A stretch of 64,000 nucleotides of DNA from Candidatus Bathyoplasma sp. NZ (lineage in GTDB: Bacteria; Bacillota_I; Bacilli_A; MAG-NZ), in NCBI GenBank assembly GCA_013332095.1, contig JABENI010000015.1, positions 1-64,000 on the forward strand, given 5' to 3'. Numbering within the stretch: position 1 is the stretch's first letter; every line of letters starts with the position of its first letter. The position numbers were made by a program, and so were the translations under genes. Positions 1 through 59,731 of the stretch are shown in pieces. Below the pieces are notes generated by a model. The model was not told the DNA's origin and did not search any database. It saw only the letters and a list, made by a program, of their open reading frames with translations.

Positions 1-1117
1 CATTTGGACTTACACCAAATTCTCCTGATGCTTCCGCTCCTAGACTACCTGAAGCTGATCTTTTACTTCGTCCATTTGGACTTACACCAAATTCTCCTGA
101 TGCTTCTGCTCCCAGACTGCCTGAAGCTGATCTTTTACTTCGTCCATTTGGACTTACACCAAATTCTCCTGATGCTTCTGCTCCCAGACTACCTGAAGCT
201 CCTCTTTTATTTTTTCCACTTGGATTTGTTCCGCCACCAGTTTTTGTTGAACTTCCTTTACTTGCGCTTAATTCACCTGAAGTTTCTGCTCCAAAACTAC
301 CTGTTGCTGATCTTTTACTTTGTCCACTTGAACTTCCTGCACCGCCAGTTTTTGTTGTACTTCCTTTACTCGCGCTTAATTCGCCTGAAGTTTCTGCTCC
401 ATATCCACCTGTAGCTGAACTTTTACTTTGTTCATTTGAATTTCCTGCACCACCAGCTTTTGTTGTGCTTTTTTTACTTGCACCTAATTCTCTTGAACAT
501 TCTGCGGCATAACTACCAGCACTTGCCATTTTACTGTTTCCACTTGATGCAGTGGCATTTCCAACACTACTGTTTTGCGTTGAATTTTTTTTACTTGCTC
601 CTAATTCTTTTGAAGACTCTGTTGCGTAACTAGCTGCTGCACCTGATCTTTTACTTTTAGCACTTGCATTTCCTAGATTACTAGCATTTGATGAACTTTT
701 TTTACTTGCTCCTAATTCTTTTGAAGATTCTGTTGCGTAACTAGCTGCTGCACCTGATCTTTTACTTTTAGCACTTGCATTTCCTAGATTACTAGCATTT
801 GATGAACTTTTTTTACTTGAAAGTTCTTTTGATGCTTCAACACCAAAATCTTGTTTTGAATTTTTTTTACTCGCACCTAGTTCATTTGAACATTCTACTC
901 CGGCATCTCTTTTTGCTTTTCTTAAATTCAAAGCAGTTCTTGTGGAATATCCACTAGCATTGCTTTTCTTTCTAATTTCGCTTGGAGTAGCGCTTTCACT
1001 ACCAAACTCACTGTCCTTTTTATTGGCGTTTACAATGTTTTGGTGTGCTTTTAATCCTTTTGAAGTTTTATCTTTAGAAAACTTCGTACTACCATACTCG
1101 TTGCTTTTTTTACTCAT
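1..1117 (-). CDS. SASP-like Ser/Ala/Gly/Lys-rich repeat protein (3'-truncated by window edge)
   Basis: The frame is open from an ATG at 1117 to the left edge, about 372 residues, with AGGAG placed correctly upstream. The protein starts MSKKSNEYGSTKF and is almost entirely Ser, Ala, Gly, Lys and Glu. A motif [F/Y/L]-[G/A]-x-E-x-S-x-E-[L/F] recurs about ten times (DFGVEASKEL, SYATESSKEL, GYGAETSGEL, SLGAEASGEF). Three last units are near-identical 24-residue (72 bp) repeats containing EASGEFGV, and two 37-residue units lie at about 590-830. The positional pattern FGxExxxE matches FGTEFASE of gamma-type SASPs, and EASGEFGV resembles the GPR site EIASEFGV of alpha/beta-type SASPs. There is no signal peptide or membrane segment. 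By inference it is a spore-core storage or DNA-associated protein. It is much longer than known SASPs, so convergent low-complexity sequence remains possible. Confidence 0.55.
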   Translation of the reverse strand, partial: MSKKSNEYGSTKFSKDKTSKGLKAHQNIVNANKKDSEFGSESATPSEIRKKSNASGYSTRTALNLRKAKRDAGVECSNELGASKKNSKQDFGVEASKELSSKKSSSNASNLGNASAKSKRSGAAASYATESSKELGASKKSSSNASNLGNASAKSKRSGAAASYATESSKELGASKKNSTQNSSVGNATASSGNSKMASAGSYAAECSRELGASKKSTTKAGGAGNSNEQSKSSATGGYGAETSGELSASKGSTTKTGGAGSSSGQSKRSATGSFGAETSGELSASKGSSTKTGGGTNPSGKNKRGASGSLGAEASGEFGVSPNGRSKRSASGSLGAEASGEFGVSPNGRSKRSASGSLGAEASGEFGVSPN

Positions 1118-1156
1118 GATATACTCCTTTTTTTCCACCAAAAAGTAGTCCATTAA

Positions 1157-1186
1157 TATTGTATCCTAACCTTCGAAAATTATTCT
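1157..1186 (-). promoter_or_regulatory. Possible forespore-type promoter of the SASP-like gene
   Basis: On the minus strand AGAATA (1186-1181) and TACAATA (1163-1157) are separated by 17 bp, upstream of the SASP-like start at 1117. The layout resembles sigma-F/G promoters (GAATA then CATnnTA-like). The -10 is imperfect, so this is only suggestive. It overlaps the end of the upstream small gene. Confidence 0.25.
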
Positions 1187-1410
1187 GAAGATATTTTTTT
1201 AATATTAAACACAATTTTAAAAATCAGTGGAAATACCACCAGAATAAACATTCCTAAAGTTATTAAAATATAGTAATTTGGATGTAAATCCAAAAGAAAA
1301 CCATCTCTTAAATAACTAATATTAAAAATCGCAAAAAGTAAAACACTCGGTAATATTAAATTATATAATATAAATATTGAGTTGAATAATTTAGTTAAAA
1401 CTTTAACCAT
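1180..1410 (-). CDS. Small two-TM membrane protein of unknown function
   Basis: A 76-residue protein whose start overlaps the 3' end of trmL by 8 bp, preceded by AAGGA about 11 bases upstream. Two hydrophobic segments are visible, roughly residues 9-29 and 46-69, separated by a short polar loop and followed by a Lys-rich tail. It is probably translationally coupled to trmL and lies last in a queG-trmL-orf operon. I do not recognise the family. Overlap with a real gene and a sensible hydropathy pattern support it as a real small gene, but no function can be assigned. Confidence 0.55.
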   Translation of the reverse strand: MVKVLTKLFNSIFILYNLILPSVLLFAIFNISYLRDGFLLDLHPNYYILITLGMFILVVFPLIFKIVFNIKKISSE

Positions 1411-1918
1411 TTTTGATAAAATCCTTTCCTTTCAATTCAACAGGTTCAAAAAATTCTAATTCCTGATAATCTTGTTGTTTTAAAGCTTCATAAACAATTA
1501 TTGCTACTACGTTACTTAAATTCAAACTTCTCACTTCTTTAGTCATTGGTAAACGGACACAGTTGTCGAAATTATCTTTTAAAATTTCTATCGGTATTCC
1601 GCTACTTTCTGCACCAAAAACAAAATATAAATCTTGAGTACTATCACTGTAATCACAATCACTTGGTTTTTTTTGCCCATATCTTGTTAAAAAGTAAAAA
1701 GTTCCTTGATTTTGCTCTTTAAATTGCTCCCAATTAGCATAAACTGCATAATTAGTCTTATCAACATAGTTAGCACCACTACGACGCACATTTTTTTTGT
1801 CTAAAGAAAATCCCAACGGCTCTATTAAGTGTAACTTGACATTAGTAGCTGCACAAGTTCTCATAATATTTCCTGTATTTTGTGGTATTTCTGGATTATA
1901 TAACACTACATGTATCAC
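1403..1918 (-). CDS. trmL: tRNA (cytidine/uridine-34 2'-O)-methyltransferase TrmL (SPOUT family)
   Basis: Transfers a methyl group from SAM to the 2'-OH of the wobble nucleotide in tRNA-Leu isoacceptors. At 171 residues it has the compact single-domain length of TrmL/CspR. Visible SPOUT motifs are NPEIPQNTGNIMRTC (8-22), the FGAESSGIP loop (101-109) and the knot helix SLNLSNVVAIIVYE (131-144). The start is a GTG at 1918 that overlaps the queG stop (TAGTG), with a GGGGG ribosome site just upstream. Its partner queG also acts on tRNA wobble modification, so the operon has a translation-fidelity theme. Confidence 0.93.
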   Translation of the reverse strand: MIHVVLYNPEIPQNTGNIMRTCAATNVKLHLIEPLGFSLDKKNVRRSGANYVDKTNYAVYANWEQFKEQNQGTFYFLTRYGQKKPSDCDYSDSTQDLYFVFGAESSGIPIEILKDNFDNCVRLPMTKEVRSLNLSNVVAIIVYEALKQQDYQELEFFEPVELKGKDFIKNG

Positions 1919-2760
1919 TATTTGTTCCCCCTATAATAATTTATTGCATCTAACATATAACTTTCTTTGCTTAAAACATATTTTAAATAATCATCAATAT
2001 TAATATTTTTATTTTTTGCATATAAAATTATATTTCTTTTAATTAAATTATGCCCTAACCAATAAAAAGCATATTCACTATATTTGTTAAATTCTTTTTT
2101 AGGACATTTCAACAAATCAAAAATGTTGATATCTAATTTTTGATGTTGGTCTAAAATATTTTTATTATTATTTTGTGGACAAACTTTTTGACAAGTATCA
2201 CAACCATATATTCGTGTTACTTTTTGATAGTCGAATTTTTTTTTCCTTTGTAAAGAACCTGCTAAACATTTATTATAAACATCTCCAATTGCTTGAGTAG
2301 GACAATGTTTGACGCATAAATTACATTTTAAACAAGATTTCAAACTGCTCTTATCAACTTCAAATTTATAATCAGTAAAAATGTTTCCGATAACGATGTA
2401 AGTACCGTATTTTTCTGCTGTAATTAACTCATTCGTTGAATAATGCCCAATTCCTGCCAAATAAGCACATAATTTATCATCAACTGGTCCGTTGTCAACA
2501 AAACTAACTGATTGAGCATCAATTAACTTTTCTATTACCGATAAGTGTTCTTTAACCAGGTAATGATAATCTTTACCAGTGGCATACGAAGCTACAACAT
2601 TTTCAGACCTATTTACCGGCATTGCGATTGAAACGATACTTTTAGCAAATTCAAAATCAGACTTAAACTTCGATTTATTGTTTAATTTATAATTTTCATA
2701 ACTAGTAAATCCAACTAATAAGCCATTATTTTCAGCATATTTAATTATTCTTGCTTTCAT
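1918..2760 (-). CDS. queG: Epoxyqueuosine reductase QueG (short form)
   Basis: Catalyses the last step of queuosine synthesis, reducing epoxyqueuosine in tRNA using cobalamin and two 4Fe-4S clusters. Cluster ligands are visible as C143-x2-C-x2-C-x3-CP (CLKCNLCVKHCP) and C187-x2-C-x3-CP (YGCDTCQKVCP). The N-terminal half carries the DUF1730-like region with a HY-containing segment near residues 107-120. The protein has 280 residues against roughly 380 for the long form, so it lacks the C-terminal HEAT-like extension; short forms occur in Firmicutes. It is translationally coupled to trmL. Confidence 0.9.
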   Translation of the reverse strand: MKARIIKYAENNGLLVGFTSYENYKLNNKSKFKSDFEFAKSIVSIAMPVNRSENVVASYATGKDYHYLVKEHLSVIEKLIDAQSVSFVDNGPVDDKLCAYLAGIGHYSTNELITAEKYGTYIVIGNIFTDYKFEVDKSSLKSCLKCNLCVKHCPTQAIGDVYNKCLAGSLQRKKKFDYQKVTRIYGCDTCQKVCPQNNNKNILDQHQKLDINIFDLLKCPKKEFNKYSEYAFYWLGHNLIKRNIILYAKNKNINIDDYLKYVLSKESYMLDAINYYRGNK

Positions 2761-3695: not shown

Positions 3696-4355
3696 TTATT
3701 TTACATATATCGTACTCCCAGGAATTAGCCAAGTTTCTGAGTTCATTTCAATTACTTCTTTTGCCGTCATGCCCGTTTTACTTAAAATTGTATCAACAGT
3801 GTCCTGCTCTAAAATAAGACAGGTCGATTTCCCAATTGGAATTTTGACCGTTTGTTCTGGCGCTAGTAAATAATTTAAAACATCATTATACATCAGTAAA
3901 AGATTAGTTGACACACCAAACTGATTAGCAACACTTTGTAACGTATCTCCTTGCTTAGTAAAATACTCCTTATAATACATTCCATCTTCTTCTTTGTAAG
4001 GAACTAAAATCGCCTGATTAGGATATATTACTGTATTATCTAAATTATTTATTTTTATTAATTCTTCTACAGTTGTCCCATACTTTTCAGCAATTTTGTA
4101 CAAATTATCTCCTTGCGCAACCAGATATTCTTGATAATCACCATTGGGAAGCATTAACGTTTGCCCGGCGTAAACTGTCGTTGAACTTAAATTGTTAGCA
4201 TTCATTAATTCTTCTATCGTTGTATTATACATAATCGCTATATCAGCTATCGTTTCACCCTGTTTTACTACATGGCTATCCTGATCTCTTAAAACACCAG
4301 AATCATATCTAGGAGCATAATAACCATTACTATTAAACATATCAAATCTATTCAT
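3696..4355 (-). CDS. Multi-LysM protein without signal peptide (SafA/SpoVID-like role possible)
   Basis: The 219-residue protein has about 27 N-terminal residues followed by three clear LysM domains (start motifs HVVKQGETI, YLVAQGDNL, YFTKQGDTL, each ending in a ...LP/VPY/IPI strand) and a fourth degenerate LysM-like unit (about 177-219). LysM domains bind N-acetylglucosamine polymers such as peptidoglycan. No signal peptide or TM segment is seen, which is odd for a wall protein but normal for spore-coat morphogenetic LysM proteins made in the mother cell. The start is supported by AGGAGGT 7 bases upstream. The spore role is an inference from missing secretion signal plus other spore-type genes in the window. 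Confidence 0.75.
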   Translation of the reverse strand: MNRFDMFNSNGYYAPRYDSGVLRDQDSHVVKQGETIADIAIMYNTTIEELMNANNLSSTTVYAGQTLMLPNGDYQEYLVAQGDNLYKIAEKYGTTVEELIKINNLDNTVIYPNQAILVPYKEEDGMYYKEYFTKQGDTLQSVANQFGVSTNLLLMYNDVLNYLLAPEQTVKIPIGKSTCLILEQDTVDTILSKTGMTAKEVIEMNSETWLIPGSTIYVK

Positions 4356-14172: not shown

Positions 14173-14667
14173 ATGAATCCAAATGAAGAGAGAATAGGAC
14201 CAATTTTACCATTTATCGCAGGAGCTTTAGTCGGTAGCTCATTATGGTATCGACCATATTGTAACAGACCATATCCACCAATTCCCTATCCATATCCAGT
14301 ACCGTACCCGATGCCTTATCCAGCACCATATCCAAGACCATATCAAGCACCATATCAAGCACCATATCCAAGACCGTACTCTAATGAGTCAATAAATAAT
14401 TCATATAACTACACGGACAATACCTATCAAGCTGGTCAACGAAGTGATGTTTCTAATTCTAGAAATGAGCCTGATGAAAACAATGATGATGTTGATGAAA
14501 GATATTCGTATCTATCAAGTAATTATCCCAGTTATCAAATGAATTATTGTTACAATAGTCCCTACTGTTACTATAATAGTCTTTATTATTATAATCGACC
14601 TTATTATTATAATCGTCCTTATTATTATAATCGACCTTATTACTATAATCGACCTTATTATAGATAA
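14173..14667 (+). CDS. Tyr/Pro-rich repeat protein, probable spore coat or surface protein
   Basis: A 164-residue protein with strong GGAGG. It starts with a short hydrophobic segment GPILPFIAGALVGSSLW (10-26), then a run of PYP/PYQAP repeats (about 34-72), a polar Asn/Asp/Ser middle, and a C-terminal array of YYYNRP units (four copies). Tyr- and Pro-rich short repeats like these are typical of spore coat and exosporium proteins that become cross-linked. No enzyme motif is present. Assignment rests on composition and the sigma-K-like promoter; a generic surface protein is the alternative. Confidence 0.6.
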   Translation: MNPNEERIGPILPFIAGALVGSSLWYRPYCNRPYPPIPYPYPVPYPMPYPAPYPRPYQAPYQAPYPRPYSNESINNSYNYTDNTYQAGQRSDVSNSRNEPDENNDDVDERYSYLSSNYPSYQMNYCYNSPYCYYNSLYYYNRPYYYNRPYYYNRPYYYNRPYYR

Positions 14668-40665: not shown

Positions 40666-43600
40666 TTACTTCTTTTTAGTGTACAATACTACTCCACCTA
40701 CTCCGACTATTGCTACTACTCCAGCTATGACAAACATCATAATTATCGATATAGGTTTTTTTGCTCTTTCTACAATTTTACTAGTAGATTCTGCATAATT
40801 CAAACCATTTCCTATGTCGTATTCAATAGTTGCAGAAAATTTATTTTTCTTGAACGGCAATTTTAGAGTTTCTCTGTTTTTTACATTTAAATCGATACAC
40901 TCTCCAGGATTACTTACGTTACAAACTTTTACAGTTGCAACTGCATCATCTGCTATAGTTGATCCTGGGTCATCAATTTGAACTGTAACAACAACTTGAT
41001 CATCTTTGGTAGGTGCACCTACTATTAATTTAACTGTTGGTATTTCTAAAAGTTCCGTTGTTGTAAAAAATTCTTCAGACAAAATTGTCTTTTCTGTATC
41101 CTTAATACTTTCCACAGAAATTTTATAATCAGCATGGCTATTTAAATTCTTGAATGTTACATCATTTTTACCGCTTACTAAAGAAATTCTTTCAATTTCT
41201 GTTGTTCCATCTTTTTCAAATAACAGTGCTGAAACTTCTGCACCAATATAATTATCTACTTCAATTATTGTAACAACTGAATTTACTTTAACATCTTTGT
41301 CAATTATAACTGCTGCAATATTTTTTTTAGTTCTTATCTCATTTGTATATAATATTTCTTCTTCAATTTCTCCATCAATTTTATACTCCACTTTTACTAC
41401 GACTTTGTATAGGTGATTTGTTTCTAAATTGGAATAAGAAAAATCTTTAAGGTTATTTTGATATAGATTTAAAGGAGTTCCTTTAACCCTATTTCTATTG
41501 TCCACATCGTAGAAGATAACTGCAGCTTTTTCCATAGAACGATCTGTATCAGATAATAAAATCGATAAATCTATTGAATTATTAGTAACTATAATTGAAT
41601 CTTCAGCAACATCAACAATAGGTATCGCTTTTTTTGTACTCACATTTAGATTATTAAAGAAATTGAAATCAGTTTCTCTATCATTAAATTCTCCTAAATC
41701 ATATATTATTTCAAAATTAATATGGTATTCAGTATCTGAACTTAATCCTTCAAATTCATTCCCACCTCTTGTTCCTACAGATAATTCAATCACTTTATTA
41801 GTTTCTACACCATTTTCCCATAAAACTGCTACTAACGATATAAGTGCATCCCCTCGGTCAATCACTTTTGAAGTAAAAGTTATTGAATCAGAAGTTGATG
41901 TCAGGTCTTCGATTTCTAAAGTAGGTTCTTCTTTAGAAGTATATACCTCTTTACTAATTACTTTTTCATGTTCTACTTCTCCTAGTGCACCTTTTAAATC
42001 ATAACTAACGTACACGTTTACAGTATATTTTGTATCAGCAGTTAATTCATCAAAAGTTTCTAATATTTTGTTTGATGTTGGAAATGATAACTTTGTTATT
42101 TCCTTAATCAATTTTCTACCTTCATAAATTTCAATATCAACACTATTATTATCTACTGCACCATCAGGATCAATAACTAGAATTTTAGTAGTAAAATCAG
42201 ATTGTGATACATCATTAACTACTATTTCAAATTCTGGTGTTTTTTTTATTGTCCTAAAGTTATAAGATGCTAAAATATCGCTACCGTCTTTTACTAGTAA
42301 TCTGTAATTATATCTGTAGTCCATTAATGATTCCATTTCCTCTAATACAATAATATTGTTTGTTCCTTCAGGAATATCGTATTCCTGTTTAAGTGGACTA
42401 CCGGTGCTGCTTAAATCTCCATCTGAGTTTACTTTGTATATCAATACGTCTAAGTCATCATCACCACTATTTATTCTATCTACTAGCAATTTTCCGTTTA
42501 TTTTTCCGCTTTCTGATATAATTTCACTAAATTTCACATCAAACTGTGGGTCATTAGCTGCAGTTTTAGTCTCATATTTGCTAAGTCTTATATTAATTGG
42601 ATTATCATCACGGCGGGAATCAACAATTCTTATTTCGTAATTTTCCCTTTTTTTTAAGCCTTCAAAAGTAAGAATATTAGGACCATTATTATTAGAAATA
42701 TCTAGTTCTTTTTCTCTATGAGACCCATCATATAACTCTGCTTTTAAACTTGTACGTTCATTACTTGGATTATTTATTATAATTTCTGTTGTAATTGAAT
42801 CATCAGTAACACTTGTCCAATTTATAACTGCATATGGTACAACGATATCCTCAACTTCTTTTGTCTTAGTATTGTATTGAGTGTAATTACCGTTTGAATC
42901 GATTGCACGAACTGCATATTCTTTTCTAACATCACCATATGTACTTGTATCTATTTTTAGATCCACATCATCACTATTACTGGATTCAAATTTATTTATC
43001 AGCTCATTATTTGAGTCTAGAGTTGAACCATCATAATCTATATTTGTAACATATCTATCATCTATCCATAGTTGATAAGAACATACTTTTTCATCAGTCG
43101 AAGCAGTTGTACAACCTACTGAAGCTCCACCTAAAGGTTCGTAAAATCCGACAATTATCTCTGATTCAACACCCTCTCCTGTCTCACCATCTTCATCATC
43201 ATCATCTTCATCTCCTGCAACTATATCAAGATGTTTAGTCTTTAAACTCGCTAAACTTGGTCCAGTTATATTTAAGTAAAAACTAATTGATGCTCCATTT
43301 CCTAATTTATCTTTCCAATATACAACAACCTCTTCTTCGCTAAATTCATGTTCAATATTTCGCAAAGCTCCTTGTAAATCTTCAAAATCGCCTCTCCTGT
43401 AATCAACAGATGATCCTGTAATTTGTCCTTCAATTTTATACTCATAAATATCATCTCTACTATTAATTACTTCTATTGTATCTCTTTCAAAAATATTTAC
43501 TACTTCCCAGACATTAGAATTGTCTGCATCAGGAGTTTTATTAGGTACCTCTATATTTTTTCTTACTCCTAAACTAAAATCATTCTTAACGATATCACTT

Positions 43601-44142
43601 ATTTTAAAACGCTCATATGTAATCGTTACTATCGGTGCGTTTCTATCAATTTCAAACTTCTTGCTCGCACTTCTCCTAATAATTGAGTCATTATCTCTTC
43701 TAGCTTCTACTGAAACGGTAACTTTTTTATCAAACCATTCATCCTCATTGATATATACCTCAATTCCATCATCTTCTTCATATCCACTATCATCTACTCG
43801 TATTTCCGCATCATCTAATACGCTATATCCAGCAGGACCATTTTCACCTTCTGTATGTCCAGATTTCCAACTACTATTGCTATCCTCATCAAACACTGGC
43901 ATATTGATTAAATTTCGAAAATTTGGCGCATTGTTAAACGTTAGAATATAATAGTCAGCATCATCTTCTTCGGCCCATTTAAGCGTAATAAAATCAGCAT
44001 TTGTTTTAAAAGTTCCTGATTCAACGTAGCCATTTTCATCTTCTCCACTGATGCTCAAACTATATTCTGTAGCTTTTACATTAGTAGTTACTAATGTAAG
44101 AGCTAAAAGTAAAAAACTAAATATCCCTATCTTTTTTTTCAT
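40666..44142 (-). CDS. Large Fn3-like repeat surface protein, membrane anchored
   Basis: A 1158-residue protein with a signal peptide (MKKKIGIFSFLLLALTL...VKA) and a C-terminal TM segment (about 1132-1154) with a Lys tail, giving a type I anchor without LPxTG. In between are repeated beta-sandwich units of about 100 residues, each ending in a DTxY-x-I/V-x-V strand, like fibronectin type III or Ig-like folds; Asp/Glu-rich loops suggest cation binding. A likely adhesin or matrix protein. Paralogous to the gene at 44545-48051. AGGAGGAGA precedes the ATG. Fn3 assignment rests on pattern, not search. Confidence 0.75.
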   Translation of the reverse strand: MKKKIGIFSFLLLALTLVTTNVKATEYSLSISGEDENGYVESGTFKTNADFITLKWAEEDDADYYILTFNNAPNFRNLINMPVFDEDSNSSWKSGHTEGENGPAGYSVLDDAEIRVDDSGYEEDDGIEVYINEDEWFDKKVTVSVEARRDNDSIIRRSASKKFEIDRNAPIVTITYERFKISDIVKNDFSLGVRKNIEVPNKTPDADNSNVWEVVNIFERDTIEVINSRDDIYEYKIEGQITGSSVDYRRGDFEDLQGALRNIEHEFSEEEVVVYWKDKLGNGASISFYLNITGPSLASLKTKHLDIVAGDEDDDDEDGETGEGVESEIIVGFYEPLGGASVGCTTASTDEKVCSYQLWIDDRYVTNIDYDGSTLDSNNELINKFESSNSDDVDLKIDTSTYGDVRKEYAVRAIDSNGNYTQYNTKTKEVEDIVVPYAVINWTSVTDDSITTEIIINNPSNERTSLKAELYDGSHREKELDISNNNGPNILTFEGLKKRENYEIRIVDSRRDDNPINIRLSKYETKTAANDPQFDVKFSEIISESGKINGKLLVDRINSGDDDLDVLIYKVNSDGDLSSTGSPLKQEYDIPEGTNNIIVLEEMESLMDYRYNYRLLVKDGSDILASYNFRTIKKTPEFEIVVNDVSQSDFTTKILVIDPDGAVDNNSVDIEIYEGRKLIKEITKLSFPTSNKILETFDELTADTKYTVNVYVSYDLKGALGEVEHEKVISKEVYTSKEEPTLEIEDLTSTSDSITFTSKVIDRGDALISLVAVLWENGVETNKVIELSVGTRGGNEFEGLSSDTEYHINFEIIYDLGEFNDRETDFNFFNNLNVSTKKAIPIVDVAEDSIIVTNNSIDLSILLSDTDRSMEKAAVIFYDVDNRNRVKGTPLNLYQNNLKDFSYSNLETNHLYKVVVKVEYKIDGEIEEEILYTNEIRTKKNIAAVIIDKDVKVNSVVTIIEVDNYIGAEVSALLFEKDGTTEIERISLVSGKNDVTFKNLNSHADYKISVESIKDTEKTILSEEFFTTTELLEIPTVKLIVGAPTKDDQVVVTVQIDDPGSTIADDAVATVKVCNVSNPGECIDLNVKNRETLKLPFKKNKFSATIEYDIGNGLNYAESTSKIVERAKKPISIIMMFVIAGVVAIVGVGGVVLYTKKK

Positions 44143-44503
44143 GTTTACTCTCCTCCTGATTTTTTATAAATTCACTCACAATCGGTAAATCAACATTAAT
44201 GATTAATTTTTTGGACTGAATTTAAATTATCTCCTTCTTATTAATTTTCAAGTTATTTTGAAAATAACCTCACTCCTTATTATAATATATTTATTTGAAA
44301 TAATCCACAAAATAATTAATTTTTTTTTTTATTTTTATTGATAAAATTTCCTAAATATTTTTGAACCTACAATAATATATGCAAATTTCATTTCAAATAA
44401 TAAAAAATTAATTAATTATTCAAGAGATATCTATTTAATTTTACCATAAAAACATTGCTTTTACATCGTTTTTAGTAAAATATTTTGAATTTATTTTTTT
44501 ACC
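44143..44503. promoter_or_regulatory. Upstream region with a promoter and palindromic dyads
   Basis: Minus-strand TATAAT at 44284-44279. A palindrome GTTATTTT-G-AAAATAAC (44252-44268) lies downstream of the expected start, TTATTT-G-AAATAA (44291-44303) lies in the spacer/-35 region, and a related CATTTCAAATAATAAA (44389-44404) further up. The repeats look like an operator family; no gene lies here. Confidence 0.5.
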
Positions 44504-44540
44504 CAAAAAAGACATTAATTAAAAAATCAATGTCTTTATT
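44504..44540 (-). terminator. Terminator of the 1168-aa surface protein gene
   Basis: AAAGACATTGAT-TTTTTA-ATTAATGTCTTTTTT hairpin on the minus strand with T run, just after the stop at 44545. Confidence 0.85.
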
Positions 44541-44544
44541 TTTT

Positions 44545-47500
44545 CTAATACTCTCTTCTTTTGATCACCCAGTAAGAACCCGCTCCGATTACTGCGATGC
44601 TAACTGCTGTTGCAATTACTATAATTGTTGGTGTAACCTTTAAATTTATTATTTTCTTGTTGTCTAATGGTAAAATACTAGCGTTCGAAACAGTTTTTAT
44701 AGTTTCTTCATCTACGATATAATCAGCAGTTACAGTTATCTCATTATTGTTGTACGGTAATGAAATTTGCTTAGTAACTACTAATATTTCCAAGTCACCT
44801 CTAGTAAACGGTACTTTTTCTGTTTGACATTCATCTCTATTTTTAATATCACAAATTTTTAGTATCAAGTCACCGCTAATTAGGAACCCAGGGTCATCCA
44901 AAGTAATTATAACAGTACCCAATTGAGGTTGATCTGAATTAGTTGCTGAAATATTTACAGTCGGTCTTTGCAAAGCTTTTTTTGTTGTTATAGATTCTTC
45001 AGTTAAAATTTTTTTATCTCCGGAGACACCAGTTGTTTCAATAGAAATTTTATAATTATTGTCGGCAAACAATTCACTGAATTCTACTGAATTTATTCCA
45101 CCAGTTAATAATTTTTGCTCAACTATTACTTCTTCTAAATATAAAACTGCATAAACATCAGTTTTTATATCTTCTTTAACATCCACACTGAATGATATTT
45201 TTTTTTCTCCCACAACTCTATTAGTAATACTAGCGCTTATTAATTTTTCAGTTCTTATCTGCCTTTTTACTAAATCCTCTCGAACAACTATTCCTTCTGC
45301 ATCTACATGATTAGCTCTAACTACAATTTCATACAAATTGTCAGGTGATAAATTGTTATACTCAAATTTTTTCGCTGTGCCTGCATAAATATTTAAATTT
45401 ACTAAGTTTTTATTACCATCACTTAAATTATTTAATCTAACTTCTAATGTGTCCGCATAGCGATTTGTGTCTGTTACCATAATAGTCAAATCAATTGTAT
45501 CAGAAGTTATCAACTCTAAACCATCTATAAATTCAACAGTTGGTTTAGCTTTTTTTGTTCTATAAATCGGTGTTGTTTCAAAAAAGGATATTGTAATTGG
45601 TTCACTATTTGAACTTAATTGATAACGTGCCTCAACATTAATATGATAATTTTTTAACGGCTTTAAATTTTCAAATTTTAATCCTTCGGTAGTTCCTGCC
45701 TTTAAATCAATGCTCCCACCCATTAGTACTCCATTTTCATATAAAAATGCTTTTATTATCTTTAAAGTTTCATCTTCATCGTTAATAACAGTTGAAAACG
45801 TAAGCGTATCCTCTGTCATAACCACATCTTTAATTTCCATAGTTGGCAAACTTTTAGCAGTATAGAAGTAATCTGAATACACTAAACCACTGCTAATTTC
45901 TTCATCTTTATCTAAAACATTATAACTACTGTAAGCTTTTATCGTATATTTAGTATTTTTTTCTAAACCTTTTGGAGTAATGGTAATTCTATTTTTACCG
46001 TTGATAAGAATTTCCCCAGAACTATCATTACCAGGATCATTAGAATTATTGAAATCAACAATAACAAGTTTTCCTTCATCGTAAACTTCAATTCTCAACC
46101 CCTTAGACTCCTCTGTATCAATAATAGCATTATCTAAGTCATCAATTAAAAACTCCATACTAATTTTATCTTCTTTCACATCAATTAAATTTACTTCAAA
46201 TTTTGGTTTACTTTTTACTGCTCTAAAATTATAAATAGCTATTATTTCTCCTTCGACTTCAACATAAATACGATAATTTGTCCCAAAAGTCAATTGGCTA
46301 AATTGGTTCAGATTAACTTCCGTATTATCATCTTGCTCATCTACTCTAATTAGTTTTCTATCTGCTTCTGCACCACGTGTTTCATCACTATTTATCGGAT
46401 ACAATTTCACTAAAATTTGATCATCGCCTGAATTTAATCGTTCAATGTCTAACACACTTTTAAAATTATTCCTCTCCACCACAGTAGATTTAAAATCAAT
46501 TGTAAATTCTTGTCCTGAATCTGCTGTTTTAATCGGATATTCTGTACCTAACATAGTTTTTATATTTTTAATATAACCAAATATTTTAAGCTTATATTCA
46601 GTATCTTTTTCTAAATCATTAAAAAAATATTCATTTACTGAGTTGCTTACTGAAATTACCTTTACTTGTCTATTTTGGTCATCATACAAAATTGCTCTTA
46701 AATTTCTCGCAACTCCATTTGGGTCATAAACATTTAATTCAAATTTAATTTTTTCCTTTGTAACTGTCGACCAATTAATTATCGCAAAAGGAGCAACAAC
46801 ATCTTCGGTAACTCCATCCTTTTTTGGATATACACTGTAGTTCCCATCAGTATCTATTGCACGTACTTCATAATAATTAGTTACACTTCCATAGTCAAAC
46901 GTTTTAATATCATAATTTATGCTGTTAACTGGATTTACAAAATCACTTGTTCCATCATAGGAAATGTTGTTCTCATATACATCATTTACCCACAGTTGAT
47001 ACGCACATGTTTTGCCAGTTTCTGCATTGTTACAAGATGGACTTCCAAAATTTGTTTCAAACCATTCAACTTTTACCGTTGTATCAATTCCATCGGTTTT
47101 ATCTGAATCGGTGTCATCTGAATCAATGTTTGAAATAATTATACTTTTATTAGTTGGTAATGCCGGGCCTATTACGTCTAAATAAAATATGTATTCACCT
47201 TCATTCTCTAATTTATCTTTAACATATAAATAAATTTTAGCTTCTTTTTTGTTTGCAATATGACTATTGTCGATTGTTCTTAAACTTTTTTCTAAATCAA
47301 CCGCATTTCCTTGACGATAATTTTCATAAGTTGTTTGCGCTGCGCCCACAATTTTATATTCGTATATTTCGGAATTGAGATCGACAACATCGATTGTTTT
47401 TTGTTCAAAGAAATTAATATTTTTATTAACTCTAACATTGATGATATTTGGCTGACCATCAGCCTCTGTAATATCCCTTACTCGACCATTAAGATCACCA

Positions 47501-48051
47501 TCAACAATTTTACTAGTTTTTATATCTTCAAACTGAATTGTTATATCTGGAGCTAATCTATCAATAGTCACCTTTAAAGGTTCTTGATTTCCCACCAGGA
47601 TATCAGTCCCCTTAAATACTTCAACACTAATTAATAATTCTCTACCTTCCCACTCCTCATCAAACACATCTAACGCAAAACCAATATCTTCATCATAGTC
47701 GTTATCAGTAATACTTAATGTGTTTAAATTATTAACAGTGTAATCAGCATCGGTACCTCGTTTATCTTCATCTCTATGAGCACTTTTATATTCACCTGAA
47801 GGATTTGGATAGTTATCAAGATTTTTTAAATTCGGAGCTCCTTCTATTATTATCTGGTATCCATCTGCTCGTTCGACTTCATTCCAAGTAATAATAATTG
47901 TTTCAGTTTTAGTCTCTAATGTTGTTGTGTCGAATTGTTTATCAAGTTCAATAGGTCTCACTTTCACATCAAAATAAGTCGCATTTGTTTTTACTGCCAA
48001 TCCTAGTATAATTATTGAAACCATACTTATAATTTTTATTACATTTTTCAC
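44545..48051 (-). CDS. Large Fn3-like repeat surface protein, membrane anchored (paralogue)
   Basis: A 1168-residue protein, GTG start with GAGGTG five bases upstream. A signal peptide (MKNVIKIISMVSIIILGLAVKTNA) and C-terminal TM with KRREY tail match the neighbour at 40666. Shared landmarks include WNEVERADGYQIIIEGAPN, a disulphide-like CxxAETGKTCAYQLWVND segment near 360, and repeated strands EKDTEYKLKIFG and NTKYTIKAYSSY. The pair arose by duplication and then diverged widely. They probably act at the cell surface; ligand unknown. Confidence 0.75.
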   Translation of the reverse strand: MKNVIKIISMVSIIILGLAVKTNATYFDVKVRPIELDKQFDTTTLETKTETIIITWNEVERADGYQIIIEGAPNLKNLDNYPNPSGEYKSAHRDEDKRGTDADYTVNNLNTLSITDNDYDEDIGFALDVFDEEWEGRELLISVEVFKGTDILVGNQEPLKVTIDRLAPDITIQFEDIKTSKIVDGDLNGRVRDITEADGQPNIINVRVNKNINFFEQKTIDVVDLNSEIYEYKIVGAAQTTYENYRQGNAVDLEKSLRTIDNSHIANKKEAKIYLYVKDKLENEGEYIFYLDVIGPALPTNKSIIISNIDSDDTDSDKTDGIDTTVKVEWFETNFGSPSCNNAETGKTCAYQLWVNDVYENNISYDGTSDFVNPVNSINYDIKTFDYGSVTNYYEVRAIDTDGNYSVYPKKDGVTEDVVAPFAIINWSTVTKEKIKFELNVYDPNGVARNLRAILYDDQNRQVKVISVSNSVNEYFFNDLEKDTEYKLKIFGYIKNIKTMLGTEYPIKTADSGQEFTIDFKSTVVERNNFKSVLDIERLNSGDDQILVKLYPINSDETRGAEADRKLIRVDEQDDNTEVNLNQFSQLTFGTNYRIYVEVEGEIIAIYNFRAVKSKPKFEVNLIDVKEDKISMEFLIDDLDNAIIDTEESKGLRIEVYDEGKLVIVDFNNSNDPGNDSSGEILINGKNRITITPKGLEKNTKYTIKAYSSYNVLDKDEEISSGLVYSDYFYTAKSLPTMEIKDVVMTEDTLTFSTVINDEDETLKIIKAFLYENGVLMGGSIDLKAGTTEGLKFENLKPLKNYHINVEARYQLSSNSEPITISFFETTPIYRTKKAKPTVEFIDGLELITSDTIDLTIMVTDTNRYADTLEVRLNNLSDGNKNLVNLNIYAGTAKKFEYNNLSPDNLYEIVVRANHVDAEGIVVREDLVKRQIRTEKLISASITNRVVGEKKISFSVDVKEDIKTDVYAVLYLEEVIVEQKLLTGGINSVEFSELFADNNYKISIETTGVSGDKKILTEESITTKKALQRPTVNISATNSDQPQLGTVIITLDDPGFLISGDLILKICDIKNRDECQTEKVPFTRGDLEILVVTKQISLPYNNNEITVTADYIVDEETIKTVSNASILPLDNKKIINLKVTPTIIVIATAVSIAVIGAGSYWVIKRREY

Positions 48052-51831: not shown

Positions 51832-54800
51832 CTATTCGCTAGGTATAGTAGTATAAACATTGATACTATAAGTAACAATGTTTCCTGATATATCACGTAC
51901 TCGCAAATCATTTTGTCCATCGCTTAAAAGAATATCCGTTATTTGATAATTTGGTTCTACTGTTACCCATTCGTTATCATTTACTTGGTACCCTGAAACT
52001 TCTTCATTAGATTCAAATGTATATACTGGATTGTCAACTGAATTAGCTCCTCCAGAAACTGGAGCTAATTCATCAATAGTACCATTATTAATTTGTACCC
52101 CAAAGTTTTGAATAAGTAATGCACGGTTTGTGGCACCTGTACTTCCACTACTAATGAAAATTTTATTATCTACTGAACCACCAGTATATGTATCAAAGTT
52201 TATTTTTCCAATAAAAATCCCATTCATGTATAAATCTGCCTGCGGTAATATTCCTCCTGCTCCTTCATCTGCAGGAATACGAGCTTCAAAATTTAGTGGG
52301 TCTCCAACTTTTACTATTGGTAAATCTACAAGTTCCGAACCTCCTATAGCAGTAACACCAGTAGCACCATTTAGAATCATAGTCCTTCCGGGATGCTGCT
52401 ATTTCTAAATACTCACCTGTATAATCAATACTAATACCATATCGTCGCTGATCAGTCCTACCTGGAATTGTTTCAAATTGTAATCCTAAATATCCCCCAT
52501 AGTCTACCGCTTGAGAGTTTCCTGCATAATTCCCAGTATTAGGATCTCCTATTCCTGCATAAGTTCCTCCAGAAGGAAGTATAAGTTCCCCTCTAAAAAT
52601 TCCACCGTAGTTGTATAAATCATTATAATTAGCATCGCTCAATAATTTTCCCATTTGAACGATATTCTGACTATTATCATCTAACTGTTGGAGCACTTTT
52701 ACTTGTTCTCCATCAATCTCAAGATCATAAATCCTATAACAGTATGCGCCCTCACCGTATTCGTTATTACAATTTCCATCTGCGTCTAATAAACCTGGAG
52801 TTACTTGCTCTGTTGTTCCGAAATACTTTCAATTAGAATCGATTCCATCTCCTGGCTCTGTATCATATTCCCATGGAAGTAATCCTTTTGATGCATAAAA
52901 CATAGCGTTATCACCACCAGTTGCCTTTCCCTCAATTGGAAACGCACCACTTACATCGTCTTCAATATCTTTAAGCACTAACTGATGTGGTAAATTGTCT
53001 CCGATAGAAACAGTATATTCACCATCAACAGGAGGGTCGATTGTTATAAAATTACCTCCATCTAATGAGTATTCTACTATTGACTCATTTGTTGTAAAAA
53101 CATACTCTTGCGCTAATGTCCAATTTCCTTTCGTTATTATAGGTATTGTTGCTATTTTTGCTATAAATGTTGCGCTTACTTCTGTAGCTACATTTCCTGC
53201 TGCATCGCTTACATTATATTTTACTACTATATCTCTTACTTCTGTTAATTCTGTTCTTGCTGCTGTTAAATCTGCTAATAAAGTTGTTCCATCTGCTTTG
53301 TAATATGTACTACTACATCATCACTTATATCTCCATCTATATCATCATTTGCTGTTGCTTCTGGTGCTATCCAAGTTGCCGCATCTACTGTATTTACTGC
53401 TCCTCCTGCTACTGAATCTAATATTGGTACTGTTTTATCTACTGTTACTGTACTTGAATTTGTTGTTGCTGTTACTGGTATCCCAGCATGGCCTGCTAAA
53501 TCAGCAAATGTTATGTTAATTTCTGCTAGTCCTTCAGGAGTTTCTGCTGTTACTATATAAGTTGCCATATATTCATTTCCACTTCCTGTTACTGTTACTG
53601 CTTGTCCTGCCATTCTTACTGATGGTGTTACTGTTGGTATTGTTAATAACAATTCACTAGTTGTTAACCTTAAGGTAATAGTATCTCCTATTTTTGCTGA
53701 TGTTGGATTATCGTTATCACTTTCTATTGTTGCTTCTAATGTTGGTGCTGTTTTATCTATGGTTACTGTACTTGAATTGGTTGTTGTTACCACAGTACCA
53801 GCGTTCCCTGCTTCATCAGTATATGTTATGTTAATTCCTGCTACTCCTTCTGGAGTTCCTGCTACAACTTGATATGTTGCCGTATATTTATCTCCACTTC
53901 CTGTTACTATTGCTGACTGTCCGGCTATTGTTACTGTTGGTGTTTGGAGGTTCTTATTAGCTGTTATATCTACTGTAATTGTATCTCCTAATTTTGCTAA
54001 TGATGTATTATGATTATCACTTTCTATTGTTACTGCTTCTAATGTTGGTACACTTTTATCTACTGTTACTGTACTTGAATTTGTTGTTGCTGTTACAGGA
54101 ATAATTGGGCTCTGATTATCATGATTATATAATATTTCAAATTCTACTACTCCTTCTGGAGTTTCTGCTGATACTATATGAGTTGCATAATATGCATTTG
54201 AGTTTCTTCTTACTGTTGCAGTTTGCCTTGCTATTGTTACGATTGGTGGTTGTAACCCGCCAGTTATTGTTAAAGTTATTGTGTCTCCTACTTTTGCAAT
54301 TGATCCATTAGAACTTGTCCATATATTAACATTTCCTATAGGTATATTGTAAATAATTTCAATTATACTGTTATTTGTTGTTTCAGTTATTGGTACGCCA
54401 ACGTTCCCTGCCTTATCAATAAATCTTACGTAAATTTCTGCTTCTCCGTCTGGAGTTCCTACTAATACTGTATATGTTGCAGTATATGTATCTCCACTTC
54501 CCGTTACTGTTGCTCTTTGTCCTGCTATAGTTACTATGGGTCTTTGTATGTCTTCACTAGCTGTTATTGATAAAGTTATTGTACTTCCTATATATCCTTT
54601 TGAAGGAGTGCCATAATCACTTTCTATTATTGCTGTTGATAAAGTTGGTACCGTTTTATCTACTGTTACTGTGCTTGAATCTGTTGTTGCTGTTACTGCT
54701 GTACCAGCATTACCTGCTAAATCAGTATATGTTATGTTAATTGCTGCTACTCCTTCTACAGTTTCCTCTACCACTGTATAAGTTGCAGTATAATTCATCC

Positions 54801-55081
54801 CACTTCCTGTTACTGTTGTTGATTCTCCTGCTATCGTTACTGTTGGTGTTTGGATGTTCTCATCAGCTATTATCGATAAAGTTATTGTATCTGCTAATTT
54901 GGCAAATTCTGTATTATTTGTATTATTACTTGATATTTCTACTGTTGGTAAGGTTGGTGCAGTGATGTCTACTGCTGCATTTACTTCTTGTTCTAAAAAC
55001 CTTGGTGTTAAGAATGCTACTACTGTTAACGTTATTATCATTAAAACCCATTCCTTTAAAAATAATTCTTCTTTCTTTCAT
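51832..55081 (-). pseudogene. Ig-like repeat secreted protein, array copy 1 (inactivated)
   Basis: Homologous along its length to the intact gene at 56138-59680. The inferred start is ATG at 55081 (MKERRIIFKGMG). Lesions: a net 5-base deletion just after GMG (about 55040-55048), a one-base deletion at about 53309, an in-frame TGA at 52831-52829 where the intact copy has TGG (Trp), and a one-base insertion near 52390. It has five Ig-like units against six, then the DDIDGDISDDV domain and the C-terminal domain with the NTGNYAGNSQ and INNGTIDELAPVSGG segments. A decaying duplicate. Confidence 0.85.
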
Positions 55082-55139
55082 AAAAAAACCTCTTTTAGGT
55101 TTATTTACATTTATTTCCATTTAATACTATTTATTATAG

Positions 55140-55912
55140 CGTATTATTTTTAAAAAAAAGGTTTTTTGATATTTAATATATTATTTTTATATTTTTTCCT
55201 TTATTTGTCGTTAAAATATTTGTGGTTGCAAATTTCATATAATTTTCTGTTATTTCGCTATTGTCAATTTTGCATAAATTCTACTTTTCTCTTTTCAATT
55301 ACTGCTGTTTTAGTTCAACTGCTGTTGCTTCATATTCACTCTAAACTACTAACAAAATTATTGCTTTATCATAATCAGATACTGTCATAATATTGATATA
55401 TATTTAAACATTAGTGTCCAGATTATTTACTCTTCTGTTCTAATATCAAAGTTTGTTCCATTTTCATCAAAATACCTTAATCTGAATCAATAAATTGAGT
55501 TTCTTATTCTAAGTGTATGGTTGTTAATCATTTAATGCTTATGCTCACGCATACATTTAACTTTTCTATGGTATATTACTATTTTAGCATTATAAAAATA
55601 TCTTTTTGCCTATCAATATCATAATTTTATTCATCTTTCAAAATCTATAATTTCAGAAATTTTCTACATATATCTATTTATCCAAATTATTTTTCATCTA
55701 CTAATATGCTTTAAATTCTTCATCTCTAAATATATTATAAATGATTAGTGTCATTGAGCATCTCAATAGTTCCACTATCTATTGCTGTTTATCCTAGTAC
55801 TTATTTTGTGCTAGGTATATCTGTCGGTAATTATATCAATAGTTGCATCTTTTTTCATTGCTTATTTTCTAATTTTAAATATATTATTATTTTCTCAAAA
55901 TGTAGTGTTTTT
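55140..55912. other. Non-coding spacer between array copies 1 and 2
   Basis: No gene. Contains the promoter flank of copy 1. It is collinear with 59745-60470: matching gatatttaatatattatttttatattttttcc, tttgtggttgcaaatttcatataatt and other stretches, more diverged toward the 3' trailer of the next copy. Both spacers were duplicated along with the gene. Confidence 0.7.
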
Positions 55913-55950
55913 AAAAAAAAGGGTTGCTAATTAGCACCCTTTTTTTTAAA
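55913..55950 (-). terminator. Terminator downstream of array copy 2
   Basis: AAAAGGGTGCTAATTAGCAACCCTTTTT hairpin with T run, about 190 bases past the stop of the intact gene. The intervening DNA is conserved between copies. Confidence 0.7.
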
Positions 55951-56137
55951 TTATAAACTTTTTTTCGCTACTAAATATACTTGTTATTATCAATTCCTAA
56001 TAAATGCTAGGCATATCATTAATATTAATAATGTTATATCAATCCAAATTTACTCCGATATTTCCTATTCTCTTTACTATGATAAAATGTATAACTATCT
56101 TATTCTATCTGTATTATATATGCTTTGTCTATTCCTG

Positions 56138-59100
56138 CTATTCGCTAGGTGGAGTTGTGTCAACATTGATACTATATGTAACAATGTTTCCTGAAATATC
56201 ACGTACTCTCAAATCATTTTGTCCATCGCTTAATAAAATATCAGCTATTTGGAAAGTTGGTTCTACAGTTATCCAATTTTCATCATTTACTTGGTATCCT
56301 GAAACTTCTTCATTCGATTCAAATATATATATTGGATTGTCAACCACATTAGCTCCTCCAGAAATTGGAGCTAAAACATCAATATCACCATTATTAATTT
56401 GTGTCCCAAAGTTTTCAATAATTATTGCTCTATTTGTCCCGCCTGTACTTCCACTACCAATGGAAACTTTATTACCTGTTGATCCACCACCAAATGTGCC
56501 AAAGTTCATTTCTCCAATATAAATTCCATTCGTATATATCTCTGCCTTAGGTAATAGTCCTATTGCTCCTGCTGTTTTAGGAATACGAATCTCAAAATCT
56601 AGTGGGTCTCCAAGTTTTACTATTGGTAAATTTACAGTTTGTGAACCTCCAATAGTAGTAACATCAGTAGCACCATTTAAAACTATACTCCCATCAGGTG
56701 TAATTATTTTTACATTCCCACCTTCATAAGTAATATTTAAACCATAACGCCTCTTCGTACCACCACCTGGAATCATTTCAGGTTCAAATTGTAATCCTAC
56801 AAATGCACCATACTCTACCACTTGAGAGTTTCCTGCATAATTCCCAGTATTAGGGTCTCCTATTCCTGCATACGTATTTCCATAAGGAAGTATAACTCTC
56901 CCTCTAACAGATCCACCATTACTGTATAAATTATTATAATCGTCTACATCCAATTGTCTAATCGTCTGTAAAATAACAGTAGAACTATCATCTAACTGTT
57001 GGAGCACTTTTACTTGTTCTCCATCAACATCAAGATAATAAATCTTATAGCAAGCTGCTCCCTCACCGTACTCATTCTGACAATTTCCATCTCCATCTAA
57101 TATATCTGAAGTTATCGATCCTGTTCCGGTATATTCCCAATTAGCATCACTGTCCCATGGAAGTAATCCTTTAGAAGCGTAAAACATTAGGTTATCATTA
57201 CCAGTTGCTTTTGCCTCAATTGGCAATGAATCACTTAAATCATCTTCAATATCTTTAAGCACTAACTGATGTGGTAAATTGTCTCCGATAGAAACAGTGT
57301 ATTCACCACCAATAGGAGAGTCGATTGCTATAAAAGTACCTCCATCTAATGAGTATTCTACTATTGACTCATTTGCTGTAAAAATATACTCTTGCGCTAA
57401 TGTCCAATTTCCTCTCGTTATTATAGGTGTTGTTGCTATTCTAAATGTTGCGCTTACTTCTGGTGTTGCATTTCCTGCTGCATCGCTTACGTTATATTTT
57501 ACTACTATATCTCTTATTTCTGTTAATTCTGTTCTTGCTGCTGTTAAATCTGCTAATAAAGTTGTTCCATCTGCTTTGTAATATGTTACTACTACATCAT
57601 CACTTATATCTCCATCTATATCATCATTTGCTGTTGCCTCTGGTGCTATCCAAGTTGCCACATCTACTGTATTTACTGCTCCTCCTGCTACTGAGTCTAA
57701 TTCCGGTGCTGTTTTATCTACTGTTACTGTACTTGAATTGGTTGTTGCTGTTACTAGTATACCAGCATGGCCTGCTAAATCAGCAAATGTTATGTTAATT
57801 TCTGCTAGTCCTTCAGGAGTTTCTGCTGTTACTATATAAGTTACCATATATTCATTTCCACTTCCTGTTACTGTTACTGCTTGTCCTGCTATTCTTACTG
57901 TTGGGGTTACTGTTGGTATTGTTAATAACAATTCACTAGTTGTTAACCTTAAGGTAATAGTATCTCCTATTTTTGCTGATGTTGGATTATCGTTATCACT
58001 TTCTATTGTTACTACTTCTAATGTTGGTGTTGTTTTATCTATGGTTACTGTACTTGAATTGGTTGTTGTTACCACAGTACCAGCGTTCCCTGCCTCATCA
58101 GCATATGTTATGTTAATTCCTGCTTCTCCTTCTGGAGTTCCGGCTACTACTGTATATGTTGCCGTATATTTATTTCCACTTCCTGTTACTATTGCTGTTT
58201 GTCCAGCTATTGTTACTGTTGGTGTTTGGAGGTCCTTATTAGCTGTTATAGCTACTGTAACTGTATCTCCTACTTTTGCAAATGATGTATTATGATTATC
58301 ACTTTCTATTGTTACTGCTTCTAATGTTGGTATAGTACTATCTACTGTTACTGTACTTGAATCTGTTGTTGTTGTAATTGGAATAGTTTTCACATCATCA
58401 CGATATTGGTATAATACTTCAAATTCTACTACTCCTTCAGGAGTTTCAGCTGTTACTATATGAGTCGCAAGATAATAAAAACCTATATCTCTTTGTACTG
58501 CTGCAGTTTGCCCTGCTATTGTTACCATTGGCGGTTCTAAATCAGATACTGATGTCATAGTTAAAGTTATTGTATCTCCTACTTTTGCAAATGATTCACT
58601 AGAATCTGATGATATCCAAACTTGTGATGAAACTTCATTGGTGTGAATTGTAACTGTACTGTTATTTGTTGTTTCAGTTATTGGTACACCAAGGTTCCCT
58701 GCCATATCAATAAATCTTACGTAAATTTCTGCTTCACCTCTTGGAGTTCCCCTTAATACTGTATATGTTGCAGTATATGTATTTCCACTTCCCGTTACTG
58801 TTGCTGATTGTCCTGCTATTGTTACTACGGGTCTTTGGATGTCCTCACTAGCTGTTATCGATAGAATTACTGTATCACCTTGATATACTGTATAAGGTGC
58901 ATCACTTTCTATTGTTACTGCTTCTAATGTTGGTACTGTTTTATCTACTGTTACTGTACTTGAATTTGTTGTTGTTGTTACTGGAATACCTGTGTTACCC
59001 GCCAGATCTTCATACGTTACGTTAATTGCTACTTCTCCTTCTGGAGTTGTCGCTACTACTGTATAATATGAAAAGAATTTCGTATAATTACTCTCCCAAA

Positions 59101-59680
59101 GTACTAATACAGTTCCTGTTTCTTCTGCATGTGTTGTTGTTGGTATTTTGATGCTCTCACTAGCTGTGATTGTATATCTTACTCTATCTCCTACTTTTGC
59201 TAATTCTAGGTAATTACTAACTTTTACTTCTAGTAGTGTTGGTGCCGTTTTATCTATTGTTACTGTACTTGAATCTGTAGTTTCTGTTTCTACCGTACCA
59301 GAGTTACCTGCTATGTCAGCATATGTTATGTTAATTCCTGCTACTTCTTCTACAGTTTCCTCTACTACTATATAAGTAGCTGAATATGTATCTCCACTTC
59401 CTGTTACTGTTGCTGATTGTCCTGCTATTGTTACTATTGGTGTTTGGATGTCCTCATTAGCTATTATCGATAAAGTTATTGTATCTGCTAATTTGGCAAA
59501 TTCTATATTATTTGTATTATTACTTGATATTTCTACTGTTGGTAATGTTGGTGCTGTGGTGTCTACTGCTGCATTTACTTCTTTTTCTAAAAACCTTGGT
59601 GTTAAGAATGCTACTACTGTTAATGTTATTATCATCAATAAGTAACCCATTCCTTTAAAAATAATTCTTCTTTCTTTCAT
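56138..59680 (-). CDS. Large secreted Ig-like repeat protein (array copy 2, intact)
   Basis: About 1180 residues from the ATG at 59680, seven bases after AGGAGG. An N-terminal hydrophobic export segment (about 13-27) is followed by six Ig-like units with the pattern AKxGDTITL-x-ITA...TVTIAGQxATVTGSGNxYTATY...TPEGxAxINITYxDxAGN...TVTVDKT. Then come a DDIDGDISDDVVVTYYK domain, a Cys-containing C-terminal domain (CQNEYGEGAACYKIYYLD) and a Gly/Asn-rich beta domain. It ends ...TTPPSE with no TM or LPxTG, so it is secreted or anchored otherwise. Likely adhesin or matrix component; function inferred from architecture. Confidence 0.8.
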   Translation of the reverse strand: MKERRIIFKGMGYLLMIITLTVVAFLTPRFLEKEVNAAVDTTAPTLPTVEISSNNTNNIEFAKLADTITLSIIANEDIQTPIVTIAGQSATVTGSGDTYSATYIVVEETVEEVAGINITYADIAGNSGTVETETTDSSTVTIDKTAPTLLEVKVSNYLELAKVGDRVRYTITASESIKIPTTTHAEETGTVLVLWESNYTKFFSYYTVVATTPEGEVAINVTYEDLAGNTGIPVTTTTNSSTVTVDKTVPTLEAVTIESDAPYTVYQGDTVILSITASEDIQRPVVTIAGQSATVTGSGNTYTATYTVLRGTPRGEAEIYVRFIDMAGNLGVPITETTNNSTVTIHTNEVSSQVWISSDSSESFAKVGDTITLTMTSVSDLEPPMVTIAGQTAAVQRDIGFYYLATHIVTAETPEGVVEFEVLYQYRDDVKTIPITTTTDSSTVTVDSTIPTLEAVTIESDNHNTSFAKVGDTVTVAITANKDLQTPTVTIAGQTAIVTGSGNKYTATYTVVAGTPEGEAGINITYADEAGNAGTVVTTTNSSTVTIDKTTPTLEVVTIESDNDNPTSAKIGDTITLRLTTSELLLTIPTVTPTVRIAGQAVTVTGSGNEYMVTYIVTAETPEGLAEINITFADLAGHAGILVTATTNSSTVTVDKTAPELDSVAGGAVNTVDVATWIAPEATANDDIDGDISDDVVVTYYKADGTTLLADLTAARTELTEIRDIVVKYNVSDAAGNATPEVSATFRIATTPIITRGNWTLAQEYIFTANESIVEYSLDGGTFIAIDSPIGGEYTVSIGDNLPHQLVLKDIEDDLSDSLPIEAKATGNDNLMFYASKGLLPWDSDANWEYTGTGSITSDILDGDGNCQNEYGEGAACYKIYYLDVDGEQVKVLQQLDDSSTVILQTIRQLDVDDYNNLYSNGGSVRGRVILPYGNTYAGIGDPNTGNYAGNSQVVEYGAFVGLQFEPEMIPGGGTKRRYGLNITYEGGNVKIITPDGSIVLNGATDVTTIGGSQTVNLPIVKLGDPLDFEIRIPKTAGAIGLLPKAEIYTNGIYIGEMNFGTFGGGSTGNKVSIGSGSTGGTNRAIIIENFGTQINNGDIDVLAPISGGANVVDNPIYIFESNEEVSGYQVNDENWITVEPTFQIADILLSDGQNDLRVRDISGNIVTYSINVDTTPPSE

Positions 59681-59731
59681 AAAAAAACCTCCTTTAGATT
59701 TATTTACATTTTTTTCCATTTAACTCTATTC

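Follow-up and report, generated by a model that had tools for sequence, protein, structure and literature searches.

A giant repeat protein with GPR-type sites in Candidatus Bathyoplasma sp. NZ is a candidate gamma-type-like SASP

Structure of the giant gene

The window, i.e., the complete stretch of 64,000 nucleotides that was analyzed, starts with base 1 of contig C39 in a genome of 1.82 Mb (44 contigs, 97% complete). Its first gene is read on the reverse strand from an ATG at position 1117, which is supported by the ORF listing and by reading of the sequence, and extends over 372 codons without a stop (Table 1). The frame is still open at base 2, where the gene is truncated by the contig end. 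The deduced 372 residues contain 11 ExxxE sites, ten of which also fit the stricter pattern Ex[AS]xE[LFIS], in agreement with the initial annotation of a long repetitive protein of at least 372 residues with about ten sites. Among 20,000 residue shuffles of this part the two patterns occurred 1.6 and 0.17 times on average and at most 8 and 3 times, respectively, but the excess of the observed sites is partly inflated because the units are tandemly amplified (72, 108 and 111 bp). The site is also present in nine units that are less than 50% alike; these were chosen by their two glutamates, whose invariance among the compared units is thus a selection effect. The same holds for the complete set of 19 units, picked by the same residues, in which both glutamates are retained and the first one shows synonymous GAA/GAG changes.

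The gene continues on contig C17, whose start was flagged by a SASP_gamma (PF04259) profile search of the same genome. This contig opens within the same repeat and the same frame and contributes 186 codons with seven sites, followed by a TGA at positions 560-562. Beyond the TGA both the frame and the repeat pattern persist for 66 codons (SRSSSLGN...KNRNATTGNYGTEFASEADPN...) up to a TAA at 760-762, and this tail holds a near-classical gamma-SASP site, NYGTEFASEAD. The protein accordingly comprises at least 558 residues with 18 sites, or about 625 residues with 19 sites if the TGA is passed, and further 24-residue units have possibly been lost in the assembly gap between C39 and C17. The shared repeat, the frame and the locus order support the assignment of both pieces to one gene. 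A genome-wide use of TGA as sense codon was ruled out, because seven ORFs of the window contain 36 TGG codons and TGA exclusively as stop. Since TGA functions as a regular stop codon in this organism, the in-frame copy represents a nonsense mutation, a readthrough site or a sequence error; if real, it removes the best gamma-SASP site of the giant protein. A separate small gene after the TGA was likewise rejected, as no start codon precedes the site.

The giant protein is of low complexity, with Ser, Gly, Ala and Lys as abundant residues. Its first 372 residues (36.7 kDa) are basic, with 56 K+R versus 29 D+E, a K+R content of 15% and a pI of 10, and KR pairs adjoin many of the sites (SKRSASG). 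A single-sequence structure prediction resulted in a mean pLDDT of 41.8 with nearly all positions at low confidence and some helix between residues 21 and 82; the protein is probably intrinsically disordered, for which pLDDT is weak evidence. A search for a relative of its C-terminal part among solved structures retrieved none.

Table 1. Location of the giant gene, its GPR-type sites and adjacent features in the window
Feature	Position	Strand	Remark
5' part of giant SASP-like gene	1..1117	-	372 codons; continues at C17:1-562 (TGA) or to 762 (TAA)
Ribosome-binding site AAAGGAG	1124..1130	-	read from sequence
Site EFGSE	995..1009	-	codons 37-41; Phe at P1'
Site ECSNE	881..895	-	codons 75-79
Site EASKE	824..838	-	codons 94-98
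Site ESSKE	716..730	-	codons 130-134
Site ESSKE	605..619	-	codons 167-171
Site ECSRE	488..502	-	codons 206-210
Site ETSGE	380..394	-	codons 242-246
Site ETSGE	272..286	-	codons 278-282
Site EASGE	164..178	-	codons 314-318
Site EASGE	92..106	-	codons 338-342
Site EASGE	20..34	-	codons 362-366
Tandem array, 72-bp (24-residue) units	1..224	-	near-identical copies at contig end
Tandem array, 111-bp (37-residue) units	581..819	-	tandem-repeat analysis
Syntenic flank: 76-aa ORF, trmL-type methyltransferase, queG-like gene	1180..2760	-	order as in G002, G003

Conservation of the locus in relatives

The locus was compared with two genomes of the same family, the complete chromosome of Mycoplasmatota bacterium zrk6 (G002; CP074575) and a MAG (G003; CAJYBF010000011). 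In both of them queG, trmL and a small membrane/zinc-ribbon ORF are followed by the gene of an 80-82 aa protein, which faces Coat_F and a 71-87 aa gene, and thereafter by a thioredoxin-like gene, DUF402 and an aminopeptidase-like gene. With the exception of the thioredoxin-like gene, C39 and C17 together match this order, and the giant gene replaces the one of the 80-82 aa protein. This synteny supports the joining of the two contigs as well as the positional correspondence of the giant and the small genes. The gene of the small protein has the location and direction of the giant one, with trmL on one side and the convergent Coat_F pair on the other, but the protein is devoid of repeats and harbors a single site, EFAEE, which fits the preference of GPR and lies in its most conserved block (EFAEEITI-PTGTTF, with EFAEEITI fully conserved). 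The overall similarity of both proteins is not significant and their N-terminal likeness does not exceed that of shuffles, so that the comparison establishes a correspondence in position and not a common descent. A common 5' leader of the two genes, suggestive by eye, was dropped on account of weak shuffle results (124 and 27 of 1000). Where the relatives have the Coat_F pair, convergent genes for 101-aa and 69-aa proteins are located (L058:798-1302), and a profile search of the 101-aa protein yields no Coat_F match any longer.

Sporulation genes of the genome

The gpr homologue whose presence the initial annotation had proposed to check was found with an E value of 1e-115. The encoded GPR aligns to the B. 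megaterium enzyme (1C8B; 316 bits, E 2e-93) and retains the two catalytic aspartates, in TPD and IDALAAR; its N-terminus retains TDLAYEE, similar to the autoprocessing site. One alpha/beta SASP, which carries EIASELGV, and SpoIVA (E 6e-99) are also present. Neither a lack of gpr and sporulation genes nor homologues restricted to non-spore-formers with a different role, named beforehand as evidence against a spore protein, was thus encountered. Judged from the genes alone, GPR, the alpha/beta SASP and SpoIVA characterize the genome as that of a putative spore-former. A scan for the sigma-G consensus promoter scored the giant gene no better than shuffles. Of 60 genomes, including that of the giant gene, 21 encode GPR and 17 encode alpha/beta SASPs; the number of the latter ranges from four to seven in several genomes of the class versus one here and in zrk6. 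A survey of the mycoplasma-related orders of Bacilli inferred that SASPs were all lost before their divergence (PMC10868615), which our PF00269 matches above the cut-off contradict for the alpha/beta SASPs.

At positions 3696-4355 (-), the window contains the gene of a 219-aa LysM protein with four matched stretches. Its subthreshold matches to SafA and SpoVID make it possibly a spore-coat assembly protein.

Relationship to known SASPs

The tail beyond the TGA has a sole match in Pfam, SASP_gamma (E 0.0037; 18.2 bits versus a cut-off of 28.4), and a sole match in NCBIfam, TIGR01442 (E 0.0047; 17.5 bits versus a cut-off of 30.65). The profile search suggested in the initial annotation hence recovers gamma-type SASPs in two libraries, all of the matches being below the cut-offs. 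In the profile searches the first 372 residues gave no SASP match and the PF00269 domain is absent from the giant protein. Searches with the protein and with the repeat-unit profile retrieved no homologues in the 60 relatives, in the genome_contigs collection or, at E 0.01, in any other of the 395 genomes of the class, in none of which SASP_gamma scores above its cut-off. A phage origin was discarded, since PHROGs yielded no useful match; a hit that was set aside covered 10 residues, its 36-residue model being without known function.

The giant protein shares its low complexity, the probable disorder, the repeated [F/Y]GTE-x-ASE-type site and the occurrence in a genome with GPR with gamma-type SASPs (SspE; PF04259/TIGR01442), of which a survey in Bacillales is reportedly provided by Vyas et al. 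2011. B. subtilis SspE has two GPR sites. In contrast, the giant protein combines at least 558 residues and 18 sites with central EASGE, ETSGE and ESSKE motifs and scores below the cut-offs. Known SASPs have a size of 7-12 kDa (PMC3533761), i.e., less than about 100 residues, which the poly-site protein exceeds at least fivefold. It was not assigned to the SspE family, which is reported for most Bacilli and no clostridia (PMC3533761), because its size, the full site consensus and the profile cut-offs do not conform. With the alpha/beta-type SASPs (PF00269) the giant protein has the layout E-x-x-x-E-[LF]-G in common, as exemplified by EIASELGV of the genome's own member, but it lacks their domain and contains many sites instead of one.

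GPR prefers a hydrophobic residue at P1' and Ala at P2', the usual site being E↓[FIL]-A-x-E. The 19 sites of ExxxE layout have Glu at P1 and P4'. Their P1' position is occupied by Phe (3), Cys (3), Ala (9) and Ser or Thr (4), and P2' is Ala in two and Ser or Gly in 17 of them, so that few sites comply with both preferences. The designation as "GPR motifs" is therefore appropriate for their layout but not for the full consensus, given the 13 sites with Ala, Ser or Thr at P1' and the 17 without Ala at P2'. Near both ends of the protein the sites EFGSE, ECASE, EFSNE and EFASE resemble classical GPR sites, whereas the central ones are EASGE, ETSGE, ESSKE, ECSRE and similar, most of them reading E↓A-S-G-E. 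They differ from the strong sites of the same genome, E↓IASE of the alpha/beta SASP and D↓LAYE of GPR. Efficient cutting of the central sites is hence not assured: either the GPR of this organism would be tolerant or altered, or many sites of the giant protein would be poor. The gamma-like context [FY]GTE-x-ASE is present in FGTECASE (C17 codon 147) and YGTEFASE (codon 214, past the TGA), and in the C-terminal units FGTECASESGV and NYGTEFASEAD the site of gamma-SASPs is reproduced. The residue-by-residue comparison of FGAETSGE with FGTEFASE in the initial annotation was correct.

Function and origin of the giant protein

Beyond the observed gene with its repeats, sites and synteny, and the presence of GPR, alpha/beta SASP and SpoIVA genes, we regard the giant protein as a probable gamma-type-like SASP, i.e., a disordered polymer of GPR-type sites. 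This polymer would consist of short units with a high content of Ser, Gly, Ala and Lys, and every unit would contribute one site of GPR layout. Its synthesis would probably take place in the forespore and its deposition probably in the spore core; during germination GPR would cut it into pieces, from which peptidases would then liberate amino acids for outgrowth. The gene probably grew by repeated in-frame amplification of units of 24-37 residues at the locus that holds the single-site protein in the relatives. The initial proposal of a giant SASP-like storage protein is supported in part by the gpr context, the subthreshold matches of the tail and the small one-site syntenic gene, but a descent shared with SspE is not borne out.

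One alternative is a coat protein of the CotG type, a basic and repeat-built spacer that the mother cell produces and that assembles on the surface of the spore. Such a protein would equally be long and disordered with Ser/Lys-rich tandem repeats and a net positive charge, and a Coat_F gene pair adjoins the locus in the relatives. Members of this group have modular repeats in common, without sequence homology (PMC9765600). However, the repeat of the giant protein is a different one, and its K+R content of 15% is far from the very high K/R/H content of CotG-like repeats, exemplified by 47.8% positive residues in B. subtilis CotG (PMC9765600). The neighborhood differs as well, as the giant gene is adjoined by queG, trmL, the genes at the Coat_F position and DUF402, with no cotH beside it. 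The recurrence of E-x-[SA]-x-E in divergent units and the repeat-free, single-site organization of the small syntenic protein also argue against a coat protein, which we consider unlikely.

Even less probable is a basic forespore polymer that compacts DNA or RNA, backs up the single alpha/beta SASP and is removed by GPR at germination. The pI of 10, the KR pairs near many sites and the contrast between one alpha/beta SASP here and four to seven in several genomes of the class would suit such a role, but the polymer has neither the PF00269 domain nor a predicted known DNA-binding fold, and zrk6 likewise has one alpha/beta SASP and yet no giant protein at the locus. Nothing speaks specifically for the DNA-coating function that was initially envisaged. 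To a comparably low degree we expect a decaying or selfish array, in which slippage expanded an old SASP gene with one or few sites that is now mostly uncut and broken by the TGA near its end. The near-identical 72-bp copies, the TGA ahead of the last site and the poor P1'/P2' residues in the middle of the protein conform to this scenario; against it stand at least 558 repeat codons without any other stop or frameshift and the retention of both glutamates in the 19 units, with the reservation that they were picked by these residues. The sites in divergent units and the single-site syntenic protein are together better explained by a storage protein than by the three alternatives.

As to its origin, it is conceivable, although rather doubtful, that the storage protein, a long polymer of protease sites, arose independently of sspE in a deep Bacilli lineage for which a loss of SASPs has been described, and that GPR accepts E↓[A/S/T/C]-S-x-E sites there. 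The function of gamma-SASPs would then have been reached convergently, through the amplification of repeats at the locus where a small one-site protein is encoded. The role of gamma-type SASPs as amino acid reservoirs is still a hypothesis (PMC8452069). A genome with GPR, an alpha/beta SASP and the poly-site protein would extend the spore-core reservoir to a mycoplasma-related lineage. The giant protein also allows the reservoir idea to be tested directly, as each molecule carries a multiplied number of sites with hardly anything except spacer between them.

Other repeat proteins and paralogs

Several further genes are conspicuous. A 164-aa Pro/Tyr-rich repeat protein with NRPYYY units, which belongs to no Pfam family, is encoded at 14173-14667 (+) adjacent to a VanY-type carboxypeptidase. 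At 40666-48051 (-) a pair of paralogs is encoded, both about 1160 aa long and with a hydrophobic C-terminal segment, which are likely surface proteins. Large paralogous repeat proteins occupy 51832-59719 (-), where a long ORF (56138-59719) is accompanied by a neighboring copy that is apparently split into frames (51832-55041). An adjacent pair of an ATPase and a partner gene at 61059-63559 (-) has the appearance of a putative McrBC-type restriction system. At L058:9059-15724 an ABC transporter pair, consisting of an 819-aa permease and a 228-229 aa ATPase, is tandemly duplicated with nearly identical copies.
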